Virus record (IMG/VR): IMGVR_UViG_3300043776_000020
Span: 1-23,825 of that record
DNA: 23,825 bases
Direction: 5' to 3' (one strand)
Source of the DNA: a virus
A program made the position numbers and the translations under genes. A model generated the notes under the pieces. That model was not told the DNA's origin. It saw only the letters and a list, made by a program, of their open reading frames with translations, and did no database searches. Positions 9,910-23,825 of the stretch are shown here, in pieces (within the stretch, counting starts at the first letter, position 1; each line of letters opens with the position of its first letter).

Positions 9910-10584
9910 TCACGCCCAGTGGCCCGTGTCCCACCCCGCCACATAAGAATTATCTGCGTCGAACCCAAAAACCGGCTCCGTCGCGAAGACGTAGATGTAG
10001 CCGACAGTTTCTGGCCTCGGGACGACCATGTCGTGCGAGATCAAGTCCTGGAGGATCGACGTGAAGGCCCCGCTTATCAGGATGTTGGCCGTCATGTTCT
10101 GGTTGTCGACGATGACGATCTTCCCTCCGGGGAACAGGTTCTGCCAGAATGAATAGAGGCTCCCCACGAGCCCGTCCCACTGGTTGTTGAAGATCGTCGC
10201 CTTGATGAGCACCCGGTAGGTCGCATCGTCCAAGACCGGACTGACGGAGTTCGACGGCTGGAACGGCACCGTTCGAGAGACTCCGGCGATGGAGCCGAGG
10301 ACGTCGAGCTGAGCGCCCACCGCCACGTCGAGGTCGAACGCCAGGTCCATCGAGACGTAGCACTGCTGGATGTCGCTGAAAAGTTTTAGGCAGAGGTACA
10401 GGAATTGGTTGAACTTCGGGGAGTTCGGATACTGGTAGAAGCTCGTGATGAGCCCCAAGTAGTATCCGATCGGAAGCGCCTCTATCGGGGGGTTGCCCCA
10501 CCCGCCGCCGCCCCACGAGCCCGTTCCGAATGATTCATTTTTAGGATCATTTACTGGATTGATTCGATTAGGAGGGCTAGACAT
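9910..10584 (-). CDS. DUF2612-family baseplate wedge protein, 224 aa
   Basis: Family marks: IGYYLGLITSFYQYPNSPKF near residue 38, then FDLDVAVGAQLDVLGSIAGV (about 85-105), LDDATYRVLIKATIFNNQWDG (about 120-140) and FGFDADN near the C-terminus. DUF2612 proteins are part of simple contractile-tail baseplates, next to the J-like wedge. The start is ATG 10584, with GGGAGGG at 10591-10597. The first 20 codons have GC3 4/20 while the next 20 have 17/20, and a second version of this N-terminus lies stranded at 11522-11563 on the other side of an HNH endonuclease gene. The present 5' end therefore appears to be a replacement. The rest of the protein looks intact, so it is probably functional. Confidence 0.9.
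   Translation of the reverse strand: MSSPPNRINPVNDPKNESFGTGSWGGGGWGNPPIEALPIGYYLGLITSFYQYPNSPKFNQFLYLCLKLFSDIQQCYVSMDLAFDLDVAVGAQLDVLGSIAGVSRTVPFQPSNSVSPVLDDATYRVLIKATIFNNQWDGLVGSLYSFWQNLFPGGKIVIVDNQNMTANILISGAFTSILQDLISHDMVVPRPETVGYIYVFATEPVFGFDADNSYVAGWDTGHWA
10525..10584 (-). other. Recoded AT-rich 5' tract of the DUF2612 gene
   Basis: Codons 1-20 use mostly A/T third bases, unlike the gene body. They encode INPVNDPKN, matching INPANDPRN in the stranded remnant at 11522-11563. Of the seven amino acids identical between these two nine-residue stretches, five use a different, synonymous codon here. This fits a resistant copy of the endonuclease target brought in with the HNH gene. Confidence 0.7.
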
Positions 10585-10607
10585 GTGAATCCCTCCCATG
10601 ATAGAAT
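10578..10607 (+). promoter_or_regulatory. Candidate sigma70-type promoter for the HNH gene
   Basis: TAGACA (10578-10583) and TAGAAT (10602-10607), each one mismatch from consensus, are 18 bases apart and point toward the HNH start at 10643. The -35 box lies inside the first codons of the divergent DUF2612 gene. A dedicated promoter is expected because this gene opposes the tail operon. Confidence 0.4.
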
Positions 10608-10621
10608 GGGGATGGTTGTGA

Positions 10622-10637
10622 AGCCGTGGAGGCGGCT
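10622..10637 (+). promoter_or_regulatory. Small hairpin presenting the HNH ribosome binding site
   Basis: AGCCG (10622-10626) can pair with CGGCT (10633-10637), leaving a six-base loop TGGAGG that contains the GGAGG ribosome binding site of the HNH gene (ATG at 10643). A five-pair stem is weak, so a regulatory effect is only possible. Confidence 0.3.
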
Positions 10638-10642
10638 ATCGC

Positions 10643-11506
10643 ATGAACCTGACAACTCAGGAAACCATCCCCGCATTTGATAATAGCACCATAGATCGTT
10701 TTTGGGGAAAAGTTGACAAGAACGGACCCGTTCCCGACTTCTCCCCCGAGCTTGGACCTTGCTGGATTTATCTTGCGGGCAAGGACAAGGACGGATATGG
10801 ACAATTTTCCGTCAAATACAAGAACTTCAGGGCGCACCGCTTCGCTTTTTTGATTACGAAGGGACCCATCCCCGAAGGTTTTCAGCCCGATCATTTGTGC
10901 CGAGTTCATCCTTGCGTGAGGCCGGATCATTTGGAATTCGTAACTATAAGGGAGAATGCGCTCAGGGGGATCGCTCCCCTGATTCGGGAAAGAAAAGCAT
11001 TTTGCAAGCGGGGCCATGAATTGACTGACGAGAATTGCTATCAACGTCAAGATAGGTACGGCCAGCGAGAATGCCGAGCTTGCGCGCTTGAAAGAACATC
11101 TGAGTGGAAAAGGAATCATCGCCATCCGAGACAGATAAAGACTCATTGCCCTCATGGGCATGAATTTACCGAAGAAAATACTCGCGTGAGGCCGGGTAAC
11201 GGCAGAGAATGCCGAATCTGCATTCGGTTGCGAGTGGCTGAATACAAAAGGAAAAAGAGAATTGCGCGAGGGCCGGTGAATAGAAAAAAGACTTACTGTA
11301 AAAATGGCCATGAATTGACGGAAGCGAATTGCTACTATCGCCCGGATCGCCCAGGAGATCGAGAGTGCAGGATTTGCTTGCTGGCCAGAGTTGGGAAATA
11401 TAGTAAGGAACATCCCCTGACAAGAGAACAGCAACTTCGTCAGAATTCCAGAGAACGCGCCAGACGCAATTCTCCAAATCCAAGAGGTCCGTATAAAACC
11501 TCGTAG
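10643..11506 (+). CDS. HNH homing endonuclease with three CxxxH/CxxC zinc motifs, 287 aa
   Basis: The only plus-strand gene. Residues 40-107 form an HNH_3-like nuclease: CWIYLAG...GYGQF, AHRFAF (about 64-69), PDHLCRVHPCVRPDHL (82-97) with His84, Cys86, Cys91 and His96, then REN at 103-105. Three tandem zinc motifs follow with Cys and His at 121/125/144/147, 169/173/190/193 and 219/223/242/245, each shaped C-x3-H-E ... C-x2-C. They probably bind DNA. The C-terminus is basic. The gene lies between the J-like and DUF2612 wedge genes, opposite the operon, and its borders coincide with a split copy of the DUF2612 start. It is a selfish mobile gene rather than a tail component. A GGAGG lies ahead of ATG 10643. 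Confidence 0.92.
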   Translation: MNLTTQETIPAFDNSTIDRFWGKVDKNGPVPDFSPELGPCWIYLAGKDKDGYGQFSVKYKNFRAHRFAFLITKGPIPEGFQPDHLCRVHPCVRPDHLEFVTIRENALRGIAPLIRERKAFCKRGHELTDENCYQRQDRYGQRECRACALERTSEWKRNHRHPRQIKTHCPHGHEFTEENTRVRPGNGRECRICIRLRVAEYKRKKRIARGPVNRKKTYCKNGHELTEANCYYRPDRPGDRECRICLLARVGKYSKEHPLTREQQLRQNSRERARRNSPNPRGPYKTS

Positions 11507-11522
11507 CCCACTGCATTGTGGG
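11507..11522 (+). terminator. Possible terminator hairpin directly after the HNH stop
   Basis: CCCAC (11507-11511), loop TGCATT, GTGGG (11518-11522), followed by TTTCTC on the plus strand only. It starts on the base after the HNH stop codon. The short stem and broken T-run make it weak. On the minus strand no T-run follows, so operon transcription should pass. Confidence 0.35.
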
Positions 11523-11563
11523 TTTCTCGGGTCGTTCGCCGGATTGATCGCGCCGTTGCTCAT
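11522..11563 (-). pseudogene. Stranded 5' fragment of the original DUF2612 wedge gene
   Basis: An ATG at 11563, four bases after the J-like gene's stop, opens 14 codons reading MSNGAINPANDPRN. This matches the start of the intact DUF2612 protein (MSSPPNRINPVNDPKN). The remnant has the GC-rich codon use of the operon (GC3 about 12 of 16 codons including the next two), and similarity stops at the border of the HNH insert. It is best read as the pre-insertion start of that gene. Confidence 0.75.
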
Positions 11564-11567
11564 TCTC

Positions 11568-13037
11568 TTAAACCGCCGCCACCGCGACGTTGTTCGCCGA
11601 AGTCTGCGCCACCTGATAGAACAACAATGAGAGGTCGGTCGTCCCGGTCGGCGCCACCTGAGTGAGGTTGAGATAGCAGCCGTGTCCGGTTCCCCCCGTC
11701 GTCGCGTAGTTCGTCCCCACCGTGTATCCGCTTCCCCCGGAGGTCGCCACCGGGGAGATCCCCGTCACCGTCCCGCTTCCCGTGATCTGAGTCACGGTGA
11801 ACGTCCCTCCGCTCGCTCCGCCACCCTCGACCACCGTCAGAACGTCGCCGAGCGTGTATCCGGTCCCGTTGGCGTTGATCGTGGCGGTGAACGCCGCGAG
11901 AGCGGTGTTGCCGAGTGTGATGCTCTTGATGCTGAACTGGGGATTCGAGAGGTTTGGGGTGGCCGACATCGCCGCCGCGTAGAGGGCCGAGATGGTGATC
12001 TCGTCCCCAATCCCCAGGCCGTTCAAGTAATTTACCACGGCCGATTGGATGGAACTCAAGGTCGCGGTGGTGAACCCCGCCAGGCCGTGCGCCTGGATGC
12101 CGACGTAGATCGCGTAGTAGGTCGGCTCGTAGAACGAGATGTTCATCGTCTGGTTCGTGTTCGGGTCCGTCACCGTCACCGTCGTCGTCCCGTTCGTCAG
12201 CGGGCCGATCCCGCGGTTGTTATAGATGGCCTGCGCTATGGCGGACTGAGTCGAGCCCTCCACGACGCAGGTGATGGAGTGAGCGGGAAGCCCGGAGGGA
12301 AGCGGGGCGTAGGCCGGGTATCCGTAGACTGTCGAGCCGTCGCTCGTCGCCGCCGTTGGGTTCTCGTAGAACGCCGACCTCCCCACGCCAGGAAGGGCTT
12401 CTATCGCCGCGATGGTCCCGGCGAGCCTCGTCTCCGAGGGAAGAGCCACGGAGTTGGCTTGGCGCGCCCTCAAGGCCGAATCCGCTTCGACGGGGAGCCC
12501 GGCGTCGGCCGCCGCGCCGTTCGTGACAGAAGCCCAGCCACCCACCGGGGTGGCGATGATGTCGATGTCTCCCGGCTCGGCAGCGATGGCGCCGGGAGTC
12601 GTGCAGACCGCCGCCACCAAAAGAGACCCTCCGGTTGGGATCGTCACCTGAGACGGAAGAGCCCACAGATATCCGTTCACATCCTGAGCCGCTCCGTTGT
12701 TGATCACCGTCCCCGCTGCCCCAACGACCGTCAAGACGGCGGTTGAGAACGTATAGGGGAGCCGGGCGATGCCGTTCATCTTTACGATGCCGTCGAGCCC
12801 GCTCCCCACGGCCGTGGCCGGGCTCCTCTGGTTGTAGGCGAGCTGGAGCCCCTGGTTGCAGTCGTTCGCGAGCAGGGCGATGAGGGACAAAAGCTGGTAC
12901 GGCTGGCTGTCGCTCGCAACGTACTGATTTTGGCCGTAAATCTGCAAGTAACCCTGAATGAGATAGTTCAGGATCGCGCTGTAGCTTGGAACAGATAGGC
13001 CTGGGGGTCCGATGCTGGGAGCTGAATATCCGCCCAT
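11568..13037 (-). CDS. Baseplate J / gp47-like wedge protein with an inserted GTGY module, 489 aa
   Basis: The length, the N-terminal SYSAILNYLIQGYLQIYGQN segment, a central region about 185-360 (ADSALRARQANSVALPSETR, then LPGVGRSAFYENPTAATSDG, AHSITCVVEG, QAIYNNRGIGPLTNG) and its place after a gp25-like gene identify a Baseplate_J/gp47 wedge. This protein joins the gp25-like wedge and the peripheral wedge in the baseplate ring. Residues of about 386-460 are a Gly-rich module (GTGYTLGDVLTV ... GGSGYTVGTNYATTGGTGHG) that interrupts the C-terminal region and recurs in the tail sheath. The ATG at 13037 overlaps the gp25-like stop by one base (TAATG). Confidence 0.93.
   Translation of the reverse strand: MGGYSAPSIGPPGLSVPSYSAILNYLIQGYLQIYGQNQYVASDSQPYQLLSLIALLANDCNQGLQLAYNQRSPATAVGSGLDGIVKMNGIARLPYTFSTAVLTVVGAAGTVINNGAAQDVNGYLWALPSQVTIPTGGSLLVAAVCTTPGAIAAEPGDIDIIATPVGGWASVTNGAAADAGLPVEADSALRARQANSVALPSETRLAGTIAAIEALPGVGRSAFYENPTAATSDGSTVYGYPAYAPLPSGLPAHSITCVVEGSTQSAIAQAIYNNRGIGPLTNGTTTVTVTDPNTNQTMNISFYEPTYYAIYVGIQAHGLAGFTTATLSSIQSAVVNYLNGLGIGDEITISALYAAAMSATPNLSNPQFSIKSITLGNTALAAFTATINANGTGYTLGDVLTVVEGGGASGGTFTVTQITGSGTVTGISPVATSGGSGYTVGTNYATTGGTGHGCYLNLTQVAPTGTTDLSLLFYQVAQTSANNVAVAAV
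11658..11882 (-). other. GTGY-xxGD module inserted in the J-like wedge protein
   Basis: About 75 residues with paired motifs GTGYTLGDVLTV and GSGYTVGTNYATTGGTGHG. It lies between a normal gp47 C-terminal beta segment and the terminal LSLLFYQVAQ helix, so it looks like a surface insertion. The sheath gene carries a similar module at 21025-21246. Confidence 0.65.
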
Positions 13038-18858: not shown

Positions 18859-19380
18859 TCACATGTTGACACACGAAGCGGCCAGCAACGTCCAAGTGAC
18901 GTTCTGGCCCCTCGCCGCATAGGGCTTGTCGGGGAGCTTCTGAAAGCCGACCCCGGACATGAAGTGGCCGCTGCCGTCGAGGATCGTCCGGAAGGCAAGC
19001 GTAGTCGAGAGCCAGTTCGACACGTCACCTCCGTTGGCGGCGGTGACCAGAGTATTGTAAAGGTCAACCAGAGCGTGGTGCAGAGAGGAGGTCTGCTGCA
19101 TCTCGATGGTGACTTCGGCGCTGTCGCCTGCCACGTAGGAGCCCATCACCACGCCGTCGGCCGCCGTGTCCATCTCGGTGCGCTGCGTCATCATGCGGAT
19201 GGTGATCGTTCCGGTGCCGATGTTGCCGCCGACGATGGGGAATCCGGCCTGAAGCGCGGGGTTGGTCAAGGCTCCGACGAGATCCCGAAAAGAATAAGTA
19301 GTTTGGATAGCTTTCTGGCCTAGAAGTCCAGTCAGGCTTGCAGCAATGCCACCTAAGCTCGGAATGCCAAAAGTCCCCAT
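18859..19380 (-). CDS. Tail tube protein, DUF3277-like, 173 aa
   Basis: Family signature: TYSFRDLVGALTNPALQAGF (about 28-47), IGTGTITIRMMTQRTEMDTA, DGVVMGSYVAGDSAEVTIEM (about 76-95), LVDLYNTL, and near the end FQKLPDKPYAARGQNVTWTL. DUF3277 proteins are encoded next to DUF3383 sheaths and form the inner tube of contractile tails. The start is ATG 19380 behind GGGGAGGT (spacing about 6). The first 31 codons have GC3 11/31 against 26/31 for the next 31, an abrupt change that abuts the GIY-YIG gene just upstream. Confidence 0.88.
   Translation of the reverse strand: MGTFGIPSLGGIAASLTGLLGQKAIQTTYSFRDLVGALTNPALQAGFPIVGGNIGTGTITIRMMTQRTEMDTAADGVVMGSYVAGDSAEVTIEMQQTSSLHHALVDLYNTLVTAANGGDVSNWLSTTLAFRTILDGSGHFMSGVGFQKLPDKPYAARGQNVTWTLLAASCVNM
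19288..19380 (-). other. Low-GC3 5' tract of the tube gene beside the GIY-YIG gene
   Basis: Codons 1-31 of the tube gene use A/T third bases in 20 of 31 cases, in a gene that otherwise strongly prefers G/C. The tract ends near the conserved YSF motif. Its position right after the endonuclease gene suggests donor DNA co-converted during homing. Confidence 0.5.
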
Positions 19381-19392
19381 TTCGCACCTCCC

Positions 19393-20127
19393 CTAATTCT
19401 TGGTCCCGACGATCTCACATGAGCCATTTGTAGCTTGGATTATATCTCCTACTAACTCTAGGCCTCGCTGCAATGAGGAATTCATTTTTCGTTGTATCGC
19501 AGCGTTCTGATTGCCGATCCGCTTGGCTCTTGATTCTGGTTTAGCTAGAGCCGCCCTCAACGCCCTTGACCGCTTTTCAGGAACTCCGGGCTTGTTTAGT
19601 GCTTCACTTTGTTTTCGGTGAGCTTCGGGATTAGCCCATCGATTTATTGAACCTGCAAGAATTCTGAGTCGTTGTTCTTCGGTTCTCTTCCCGGCAGCAT
19701 TCGCCTTTCCTGTCATGCCTTTCGATTTCTTCAATCGCGCCTCTGGATTTGACCAGTAACGAAGGGCCGATGCTTTCATTTTAGCGATAGATTTAGAGGA
19801 GAATTTAAACCCGATCAGCGTCCTTCCTCCGGGCTTGATGTTATAGCCCTTCTGCGGGTTCGTGCTGTCGTAGCGGCTGATGAAGGATTCTTCGAGGAAG
19901 TCTGCCTCAGCACAATTCTCGGCGAAACAAAGTGCTCGAATTTCGAAATTCTCTGGCCCGTATTTCCTGATGGCCCGGTAGAAAATAGGGCAGCCGCTCT
20001 CTCCTTCGAGTGCGTCATTGACGTGCCGGCGCCACCGCTCTTCAAAAGCCTTGCTCGTCTGCCCGACGTAGACCTTTCCGTTCGCCAAGCACCGAATCAG
20101 GTAAATCGTGATGATCGAGTTCGTCAT
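19393..20127 (-). CDS. GIY-YIG homing endonuclease, 244 aa
   Basis: The N-terminal GIY-YIG nuclease (about 5-100) shows IYLIRCLANGKVYVGQT, the conserved Arg near 31, CPIFYRAIRKYGPENFEIRA, a catalytic Glu near 79-80 (FLEESFISRYD) and KGYNIKPGG. The basic C-terminal half (SSKSIAKMKASALRYWSNPE, then RWANPEAHRKQSEALN) is a repeat-like DNA-binding region. The gene stands alone between sheath and tube, where no such gene belongs. The 5' half is GC-rich like the phage and the 3' half is AT-richer. ATG 20127 has no good ribosome binding site. It is a selfish element that promotes its own spread. Confidence 0.92.
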   Translation of the reverse strand: MTNSIITIYLIRCLANGKVYVGQTSKAFEERWRRHVNDALEGESGCPIFYRAIRKYGPENFEIRALCFAENCAEADFLEESFISRYDSTNPQKGYNIKPGGRTLIGFKFSSKSIAKMKASALRYWSNPEARLKKSKGMTGKANAAGKRTEEQRLRILAGSINRWANPEAHRKQSEALNKPGVPEKRSRALRAALAKPESRAKRIGNQNAAIQRKMNSSLQRGLELVGDIIQATNGSCEIVGTKN

Positions 20128-22180: not shown

Positions 22181-22551
22181 GACCCCATGTCCATCCGCGT
22201 GGCGATCGCCAAAAAATAGCCGTAATCGGAGTATTCCAGCACCTGGAGAACCCGGAAGTTCTTCCCCCTCCAGACCAGGATGTCGCTCGACCCCGGCTGG
22301 CCGTCCTCCCCGTTCTCCCTCGTGGTGAAGATCGGGGCCTCGGAGTGGAACGCCATCGCGCTCGTCACCACGTCGCCCTCGGGGAGCATCTCGATCTGCT
22401 TCGGAGTCGCCGGAGTGATCGTCCCGAACCCCTGGACCGTCTCAGTGTTCGGAGTCCACACGCCATCGACATAGGAGCCGCCGTTCGACCGGACGATCTG
22501 GTACGGCTGGGCGAACTCGTTCGCGTTGACCACCATCGAGAGATCGATCAT
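22177..22551 (-). CDS. Head-closure / head-tail connector-like protein, 124 aa
   Basis: Start ATG 22551 overlaps the stop of the GIY-YIG gene (ATGA). An upstream in-frame ATG at 22638 lies wholly inside that gene and is rejected. Features: YQIVRSNGGSYVDGVW, FGTITPATPKQIEMLPEGDV (about 45-65), DILVWRGKNFRVLQVLEYSD (about 93-112), YGYFLAIATR. The 'G..rvlqv.dy..yGyf.aia.r' C-terminus is typical of small head-completion/closure proteins. No good Shine-Dalgarno is visible, so translation may depend on coupling to the endonuclease gene. Confidence 0.72.
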   Translation of the reverse strand: MIDLSMVVNANEFAQPYQIVRSNGGSYVDGVWTPNTETVQGFGTITPATPKQIEMLPEGDVVTSAMAFHSEAPIFTTRENGEDGQPGSSDILVWRGKNFRVLQVLEYSDYGYFLAIATRMDMGS

Positions 22552-23285
22552 ATTCGTGTTCTGTGCGCGACTGACATCTTCAGCCTCGTCTCTTCTGAAT
22601 GCTTCTTCCCAATGTGAGATAAGGAAAGATGACTGCAATGCTGTTCAGAAAGTCGCTTTCCCTTGTTCCACGGACGGTTCCCCATCAGCGTTGCTGATAT
22701 TTTCTGGCGTGCTTCTTCTGAAGGAGCCATTCCCTTGTGAGCTTCCGAAATCTTTCTGCGCGTTTCTTCGGAGTGCGGACCGCGCTTTTTCCCTCTCTGG
22801 CATTCGGAGATGTGGAGCTTTCTTTCATCGCTTAGTTTGATCCCGCTAAATCTGAGCGTAGCCCGCTTAGACCACTCAAGCCTCTGCTCCCCTGTCCACA
22901 CTCTTGCCCTCTGCGCCTTAGACATTTTTCGGCGTGTTTCCTCAGAAACAACTCTATTTCGGTTGGCTCGTGAAAGTTTCTCCCGAGTCTCATCTGTTAG
23001 GCCTTGCTGTCCATCTCCTCCATCTGTTAAGTTGTAGCCAGAAGGATGCTTAGAATCCAATTCCTTTATCCAGTGGCGCTCTTTCTCTTGCAACTCAGTC
23101 CAGTCGGCGGCTGAATCAATTATAGAAAACTCAAATCCCGACGTCCCATACTTTCTGAGGGCATCACGGAAGGGGGTCTTTTTAGCCGACCGAAAGTGTT
23201 GGCCGATCCGTTTTTCAAGAGTTTGGCGCGTCATCCCCACATATATTCTTCCGCTTACAAGATTTCGCGCCTTGTAAATAATCAC
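22548..23285 (-). CDS. GIY-YIG homing endonuclease with multiple NUMOD3 motifs, 245 aa
   Basis: The N-terminal nuclease (1-92) has IIYKARNLVSGRIYVGMTRQ, Arg26, TPFRDALRKYGTSGFEFSII, a catalytic Glu near 69 (LQEKERHWIKEL) and SGYNLTDGGDG. The rest is a chain of NUMOD3-type DNA-binding units: LTDETREKLSRANR, SEETRRKMSKAQRA, HSEETRRKISEAHKG, PSEEARQKISATLMGN, HSEETRLKMSVAH. It starts with GTG 23285 overlapping the stop of the upstream gene (GTGA) and ends overlapping the next start (ATGA), so it sits seamlessly in the operon. Codon use is AT-richer than its neighbours. It is a selfish insertion, separate in type from the endonuclease at 19393-20127. Confidence 0.93.
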   Translation of the reverse strand: MIIYKARNLVSGRIYVGMTRQTLEKRIGQHFRSAKKTPFRDALRKYGTSGFEFSIIDSAADWTELQEKERHWIKELDSKHPSGYNLTDGGDGQQGLTDETREKLSRANRNRVVSEETRRKMSKAQRARVWTGEQRLEWSKRATLRFSGIKLSDERKLHISECQRGKKRGPHSEETRRKISEAHKGMAPSEEARQKISATLMGNRPWNKGKRLSEQHCSHLSLSHIGKKHSEETRLKMSVAHRTRI

Positions 23286-23825
23286 GGCCTTCCCCTAAGC
23301 TTGATATTCATTTGCTCCCGTTTTTGGACGGAAGTCATTTTCTCAAATCCTCTCAATACCCAGCGTATCGAGCGCCGCAGTTGCCCGGAATCTATGAGCG
23401 GCCTGTCCGACCCCTTCCTGGCAATCGTCGAAGGAGCGTTCGGCGCCCAGCCGTTTCTTGGGTCGGTGAACCACGCCTTGCAGCGGTTCGTCGCTTCCGT
23501 CCCGGCCCTCTGGAGGAATCGCTTCGCCTCCGTGGGCTTTCGGTTCATCCACGCCGTCGCCGCGTCTTTCAATTCCTTCGCGATGGCTTGCTTGTTCCCG
23601 CTCGCCTGGATCGCGGGCTCGATGACCGGTCGCGGCGGGATGTGGCGGATCGGGCTGCCGTGGGTGTGAATGTAGAGCAATTCTGCGTTGTTGATCTTCG
23701 TTCTCTTGCCCTTGACCACCCTCCTATCGGCGGTCGCCTGCGGGATGCCGACTAGCACCTCGACCTTCCTCAACTCCATCAGGGTATTCTGGAAGTTCTT
23801 GAGCCCCGATTCCCGTTTTGTAACC
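23282..23825 (-). CDS. Virion morphogenesis / tail completion protein, gp10-like (5' end beyond window)
   Basis: The frame is open to the window edge. The ATG at 23779 lacks a ribosome binding site, and the in-frame residues before it (VTKRESGLKNFQNTL) match the usual start of this family, so the real start is probably outside. Core motifs: VEVLVGIPQATADR, INNAELLYIHTHGSPIRHIP, then PRPVIEPAIQ, and near the C-terminus NAPSTIARKG, PLIDSGQLRRSIRWVL. Such proteins join neck and tail in phages. The last 25 codons have only 13/25 G/C third bases and extend past the family's usual end, beside the endonuclease gene. Its stop overlaps the GTG of that gene. Confidence 0.82.
   Translation of the reverse strand, partial: VTKRESGLKNFQNTLMELRKVEVLVGIPQATADRRVVKGKRTKINNAELLYIHTHGSPIRHIPPRPVIEPAIQASGNKQAIAKELKDAATAWMNRKPTEAKRFLQRAGTEATNRCKAWFTDPRNGWAPNAPSTIARKGSDRPLIDSGQLRRSIRWVLRGFEKMTSVQKREQMNIKLRGRP

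Follow-up and report, generated by a model that had tools for sequence, protein, structure and literature searches.

Duplicated C-termini are found in mobile open reading frames (mORFs) of fungal mitochondria, for example in Allomyces macrogynus atp6 and in atp6, atp9, cox2, and nad3 of Glomus sp. (PMC3630166). As outlined in the excerpts of that source, an endonuclease ORF interrupts a gene that relatives carry without a break, the native gene end is left behind, and a second, diverged copy of this end is joined to the gene body and keeps the gene whole. The synonymous divergence between the two copies is strong, and in some cases the gene is fused in frame with the endonuclease. The mORFs described there affect 3' ends of mitochondrial genes and encode LAGLIDADG or GIY-YIG enzymes.

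In phages, the free-standing homing endonucleases Seg and Mob of T4 are associated with co-conversion and marker exclusion (PMC2988022). Their genes are intron-less, stand beside essential phage genes, and are transferred together with their flanks. They are usually located between genes, and no duplicated native gene end is described for them in the excerpts of that account. Other homing endonuclease genes (HEGs) lie within a coding region and split it, such as mobE in Aeh1 nrdA and mobA in T4 gene 60; according to the same excerpts, both fragments of the split gene are made and then assemble (PMC2988022). HEGs near structural genes have been reported in phages (PMC10448857, in part), as has resistance of the recipient through a replaced cleavage sequence (PMC12724721, in part). 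A substitute gene end in a phage was not described in the open-licence papers that were searched, represented mostly by abstracts, which is weak evidence of absence.

The window analyzed here, a 23.8-kb virus record with a structural operon on the minus strand, shares features with all of these systems. As in the T4 systems, an intron-less HEG stands beside essential genes, and as for mobE and mobA, it lies within a coding region; however, the missing end of the split gene has been replaced, and one intact protein is encoded instead of two fragments. As in the mORFs, an endonuclease ORF interrupts a gene, the native end is left behind, a substitute end keeps the gene whole, and the copies differ in synonymous codons. 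Nevertheless, because it involves a 5' end, a phage, and an HNH enzyme, the locus works like an mORF but is not classified as one; the HNH gene is also antisense to its target and is crossed by an open bridge frame. With a probability of roughly 0.8, an HNH gene invaded the 5' end of a DUF2612 baseplate gene, a diverged head was imported along with it, and the old head was left as a remnant. Such an event would let an intron-less selfish endonuclease enter the coding sequence of a structural phage gene while the gene survives.

Layout of the interrupted locus and its uninterrupted relatives

The HNH homing endonuclease gene occupies positions 10643–11506 on the plus strand (PF13392, E = 1.8e-12; phrog_826, E = 6.6e-66). 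Its catalytic domain scores 47.1 bits against a cut-off of 24.8, and three zinc-ribbon-like repeats are found in the protein (C-x2-GH repeats, D1). The central Asn is replaced by Arg, as it is in 7 of 79 relatives. A search of solved structures with the HNH profile gave no match.

The intact DUF2612 gene in its present form is located at 9910–10584 on the minus strand (PF11041, E = 6.7e-31), and its product is 51–68% identical to its relatives. Its ATG is at 10584 and the protein begins with MSSPPNRINPVNDPKN; the start chosen by the ORF tool, at 10599, adds MGGIH and nothing more. Across the HNH gene lies a J-like baseplate wedge gene (11568–13037, minus strand; phrog_6, E = 4.6e-51), directly upstream of the native DUF2612 start; the sole match found among relatives of its product was a near-identical contig. 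This second contig, 99.99% identical to the window, has the same arrangement, so an assembly error is unlikely, and the two contigs still represent one event in one phage, the only one from which the DUF2612 case is known.

The initial annotation had noted a native-like DUF2612 start after the J-like stop codon. This start is indeed present: an ATG at 11563, 4 nt beyond the stop, opens a remnant of 14 codons (11522–11563, minus strand) encoding MSNGAINPANDPRN. The likeness between the remnant and the present head breaks off at about 11522, by the HNH border, as had been stated. The substitute head comprises about 18 codons (MSSPPNRINPVNDPKNES; 10531–10584, minus strand); the span of 10525–11563 originally assigned to the whole feature was thus right in essence, its lower bound being slightly too low. 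Both copies carry the motif INPxNDPxN, as INPANDPRN in the remnant (11522–11548, minus strand) and as INPVNDPKN in the head (10537–10563, minus strand). The similarity score of the remnant and the head was reached by only 1 of 20,000 shuffles. When all 38,880 nine-residue windows of the six frames are ranked, the two copies of the motif come first, with scores of 39 and 38; the next window scores 23. The back-translated motif was found in only 28 stretches across the IMG/VR collection, and DUF2612 contexts among these matches are confined to the phage of the window (twice) and to the relative L061/L178 (once).

Relatives of the DUF2612 gene were collected by a single-protein search (14 loci) and by an alignment search (80 loci). 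The initial annotation had predicted that in relatives lacking the HNH gene the J-like gene would be followed directly by DUF2612. This is the case in the relatives for which both genes could be mapped. For the 83 with a measurable gap, the distance between the two genes is −8 to +21 nt, and the HNH gene is found in none of them. The predicted native start was also recovered in an uninterrupted relative. In L061 the J stop codon, GAGA, and the ATG follow each other exactly as at the native junction of the window (TAAGAGAATG; 11561–11570, minus strand), and the gene begins with MPLNINPKNDPLN, the only uninterrupted gene with INPxNDPxN. Since L061 has both this junction and this motif, the remnant represents the native DUF2612 start, with the HNH gene inserted after codon 14. 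In protein similarity, L061 scores higher with the substitute head (47) than with the remnant (39). Many other DUF2612 heads among the relatives resemble M-NPYYGTQGYG-GGYGN. Neither this HNH gene nor homologs of the two GIY-YIG genes of the phage were found in ten syntenic operons.

Two findings could have spoken against displacement, namely an HNH-free relative carrying both heads, or a sequence at 11563 unrelated to DUF2612. No such relative was found, and the sequence at 11563 is a DUF2612 head. As judged from these comparisons, the ancestral order in the phage was the J-like gene, 4 nt, and DUF2612 beginning with MSNGAINPANDPRN. The HNH gene thus split DUF2612 behind its codon 14, and the start was replaced by a head of foreign appearance. 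The displacement and replacement of the DUF2612 5' end, first proposed from the window itself, are supported by the L061 junction, by the 83 HNH-free relatives, and by recurrence elsewhere.

Duplicated gene ends around other phage HNH genes

Other phage HNH genes were scanned for same-strand protein similarity between their two flanks, with mismatched flank pairs as the null. Low-complexity matches dominated the unfiltered scan, and an entropy filter was applied against them. The filter also drops the short repeat of the window, which is therefore counted from direct evidence.

In the first set of 94 distinct loci, L299 (score 74) and L269 (61) were clearly above the best of 400 mismatched pairs (47). 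In the second set of 78 loci, with a null maximum of 54, the loci above it were L386 (108), L379 (77), and again L269 (65, as L375). The locus L384 also exceeded this maximum by a low-complexity match and was dropped, as were L308 and L291, which have a low-complexity look. Among 22 loci from named phages, a duplicated gene end was found only in the Brevibacterium phage Cantare (88). In the control set of 145 non-HNH ORFs, a single one, a repetitive sequence, scored above the threshold. The comparison of rates is modest by itself; the strength of these cases is in the position of the copies and in their codon pattern.

In L269, an upstream stop codon overlaps the GTG of VSGGVCAVMLVKDE, the frame of which continues into the HNH gene. 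A glycosyltransferase-like gene then begins with VSGGVCAVMLCKDESDIIETT, and its GTG is overlapped by the HNH stop codon. Over 14 codons the two copies agree in 7, differ synonymously in 6, and differ in the encoded residue in 1. For the glycosyltransferase-like protein, the search for relatives returned only the protein itself in IMG/VR and only distant matches in phages. The remnant of L299 had no match in phages, and its gene runs off the contig.

The cultured phage Cantare (L340; NC_071014.1, about 62353–63090) has a ParB-like remnant, the HNH gene gp76, and a re-coded gp77. The resolvase gene and the remnant, MHDRSVVEEYDTIALSELKPF, have 14 nt in common; gp76 comes next, and its stop codon overlaps the start of the ParB-like gp77, MHERSVVEEYDTMRLQDLTPF. 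Between the remnant and the gp77 start, 8 codons are identical, 7 synonymous, and 6 changed. In the Gordonia phages Gray, DalanDe, and GMA6 the ParB-like gene directly follows the resolvase gene and no HNH gene is present; Gray has the same 14-nt overlap. Cantare being in culture, target recognition, immunity through recoding, and translation across the insert would be directly testable in this phage.

Two further loci have 3'-end versions, unlike the 5' end affected in the window and likewise in phages. In L379 (1943–2445), the gene tail IIDWQVFKELIEGSDYE precedes the HNH gene and IIDWEVFKELIRDSDYE follows it, with 9 synonymous, 5 identical, and 3 changed codons; 9 of the 14 shared residues are thus differently coded. 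In L386 (1745–2815), the duplicated gene end resembles a glycosyltransferase C-terminus. This locus is a probable case, less certain than L379 because an additional ORF start precedes its second copy. A weak further candidate is L364 (1920–2510), with a score of 45 inside the null range; here, MTRTAQDTFLSPEATAADR is fused in frame to the HNH gene, the stop codon of which overlaps the start of VTRTPLDTFLSDQTLATAR.

Since the same architecture recurs around other host genes, the DUF2612 case is more than a one-off. Duplicated ends around unrelated phage genes suggest a recurring trick previously known from fungal mitochondria, and they suggest that the mitochondrial mORF strategy operates in phages too, at 5' as well as at 3' ends.

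Origin of the substitute head

The present DUF2612 start is AT-rich at third codon positions, in agreement with the initial annotation: GC3 is 4/20 in codons 2–21 and 17/20 in the following twenty. With 2/16 in codons 2–17, the head has the lowest GC3 when the structural genes are scanned in windows of sixteen codons (3,564 in all). The runner-up among non-overlapping stretches, at 4/16, is where the tube gene begins, 12 nt downstream of a GIY-YIG gene; the seven lowest also include the 3' end of the neck gene, which adjoins the other GIY-YIG gene. In the INP-NDP-N stretch the two copies share seven residues, five of which are written with different synonymous codons, as had also been noted; of its nine codons, 2 are identical, 5 synonymous, and 2 nonsynonymous (19/27 nt). 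The HNH gene has a GC3 of 0.49, higher than that of the head, so the two need not have one source. A search for a donor of the head found none.

These data are best accounted for by the following sequence of events. The HNH enzyme would have cut the head of the HNH-free allele, and repair would have brought in the cassette along with a diverged DUF2612 5' end, so that the tail gene stays intact, according to the logic of mORFs. The different DNA spelling of the head should stop re-cutting of the rebuilt site, and this protection is expected because a head of identical sequence would restore the target next to the gene body. Such a putative immunity to cleavage through recoding is plausible. 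As a second possible benefit, the lower homology between the two copies of the head should limit loss of the cassette by deletion or recombination.

The strongest alternative, which we rate only a little below an even chance, is plain co-conversion, by which an intergenic HNH gene of a diverged phage was transferred together with the adjoining DUF2612 start, an imperfect join left the recipient head in place, and the codon divergence is passive. That phage HEGs carry their flanks along by co-conversion is well documented in the excerpts of PMC2988022, and the head differs from the remnant in amino acids as well. The tube start and the neck tail, each next to a GIY-YIG gene, show AT3-richness too and have no remnant. 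However, the ordinary form of co-conversion swaps the flank and no duplicate remains, while duplicated ends recur at several unrelated genes, and L269 keeps 13 of 14 residues with 6 codons re-spelled.

The two GIY-YIG loci were also inspected in their own right. One homing endonuclease gene (19393–20127, minus strand) is located between the sheath gene and the tube gene (18859–19380, minus strand), the first approximately 31 codons of which are AT3-rich (10/30) and form the second-lowest stretch of the operon. The other, a GIY-YIG/NUMOD3 gene (22548–23285, minus strand), is located between the neck1 gene (23282–23779, minus strand) and a phrog_939 gene and has an overlap of a few bases with each. 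The neck1 gene ends in an AT3-rich stretch (7/16) that is unlike its relatives. A search by eye for remnants beside these two genes found none. With the low GC3 of the tube and neck ends, this phage seems to have more than one case of an imported host gene end beside an HEG.

An AT-rich head may instead reflect an accessible translation start or an HNH promoter and not a foreign origin. AT-rich gene starts are common in GC-rich genomes, a Shine-Dalgarno-like GGGAGGG read from the sequence precedes the new ATG (10591–10597, minus strand), and one promoter-like match is found on the plus strand at 10578–10607. This reading is unlikely: all other gene starts of the window have a GC3 of 6/16 or more, and the head has changed in length and in residues too.

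A tandem duplication, in which the insertion came to lie between two copies of the resident head and codon usage then drifted in one of them, would explain why both heads have a rare motif in common, but it is highly improbable, since a GC3 of 11/13 in the remnant vs. 2/16 in the head and the replacement of 2 of 9 codons are a divergence far beyond the rest of the operon. Least credible of all is a split gene in which the remnant acts as exon 1 and is connected to the rest by intron splicing or ribosome bypassing: group I introns often house HNH genes and the remnant would fit well as a 5' exon, but a search of 10100–12100 for catalytic intron structure gave no Rfam match at E ≤ 1, and the gene body is complete in itself, with a start, a Shine-Dalgarno-like site, and a head of its own.

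Bridge frame and possible translation across the insert

For the favored reading, HNH invasion with an imported head, translation of the displaced gene is also of interest. From the native start, a bridge ORF of 328 codons (10577–11563, minus strand) runs through the antisense strand of the HNH gene, and its TAG overlaps the new start codon (ATGTCTAG). The codons TTA, CTA, and TCA are absent from the HNH gene. In L299, the other antisense case, the remnant frame is open for 253 codons and its TGA overlaps the new start (ATGAATACTGA). Among HNH genes of 45–55% GC, 2 of 28 have the equivalent antisense frame open; among those of 55–62% GC, L299 included, 6 of 54 do.

As a weaker part of the proposed mechanism, the old DUF2612 start may still be functional and coupled to the J stop codon, and the long frame, by ending over the new start codon, may relay ribosomes past the insert. 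We have moderate confidence that ribosomes are carried from the native to the substitute start, a pattern noticed after the fact. More tentatively, and with the odds rather against it, these loci may belong to a class of phage HNH genes that invade within about 35 codons of a gene end, bring a re-spelled substitute end, use a native-start relay, and, where the HNH gene is antisense, keep a bridge frame open to the substitute start.

For annotation, short ORFs beside phage HNH genes can be native-start remnants, and gene ends adjoining HEGs may be imported.

In L269 and Cantare, the new start is overlapped by the HNH stop codon itself. As a separate observation, in the actinophages Yvonnetastic, PapayaSalad, DrYang, and HFrancette (L319, L322, L325, and L334, respectively) an HNH gene is located directly before the gene for the single-stranded DNA-binding protein, abutting or overlapping its start.
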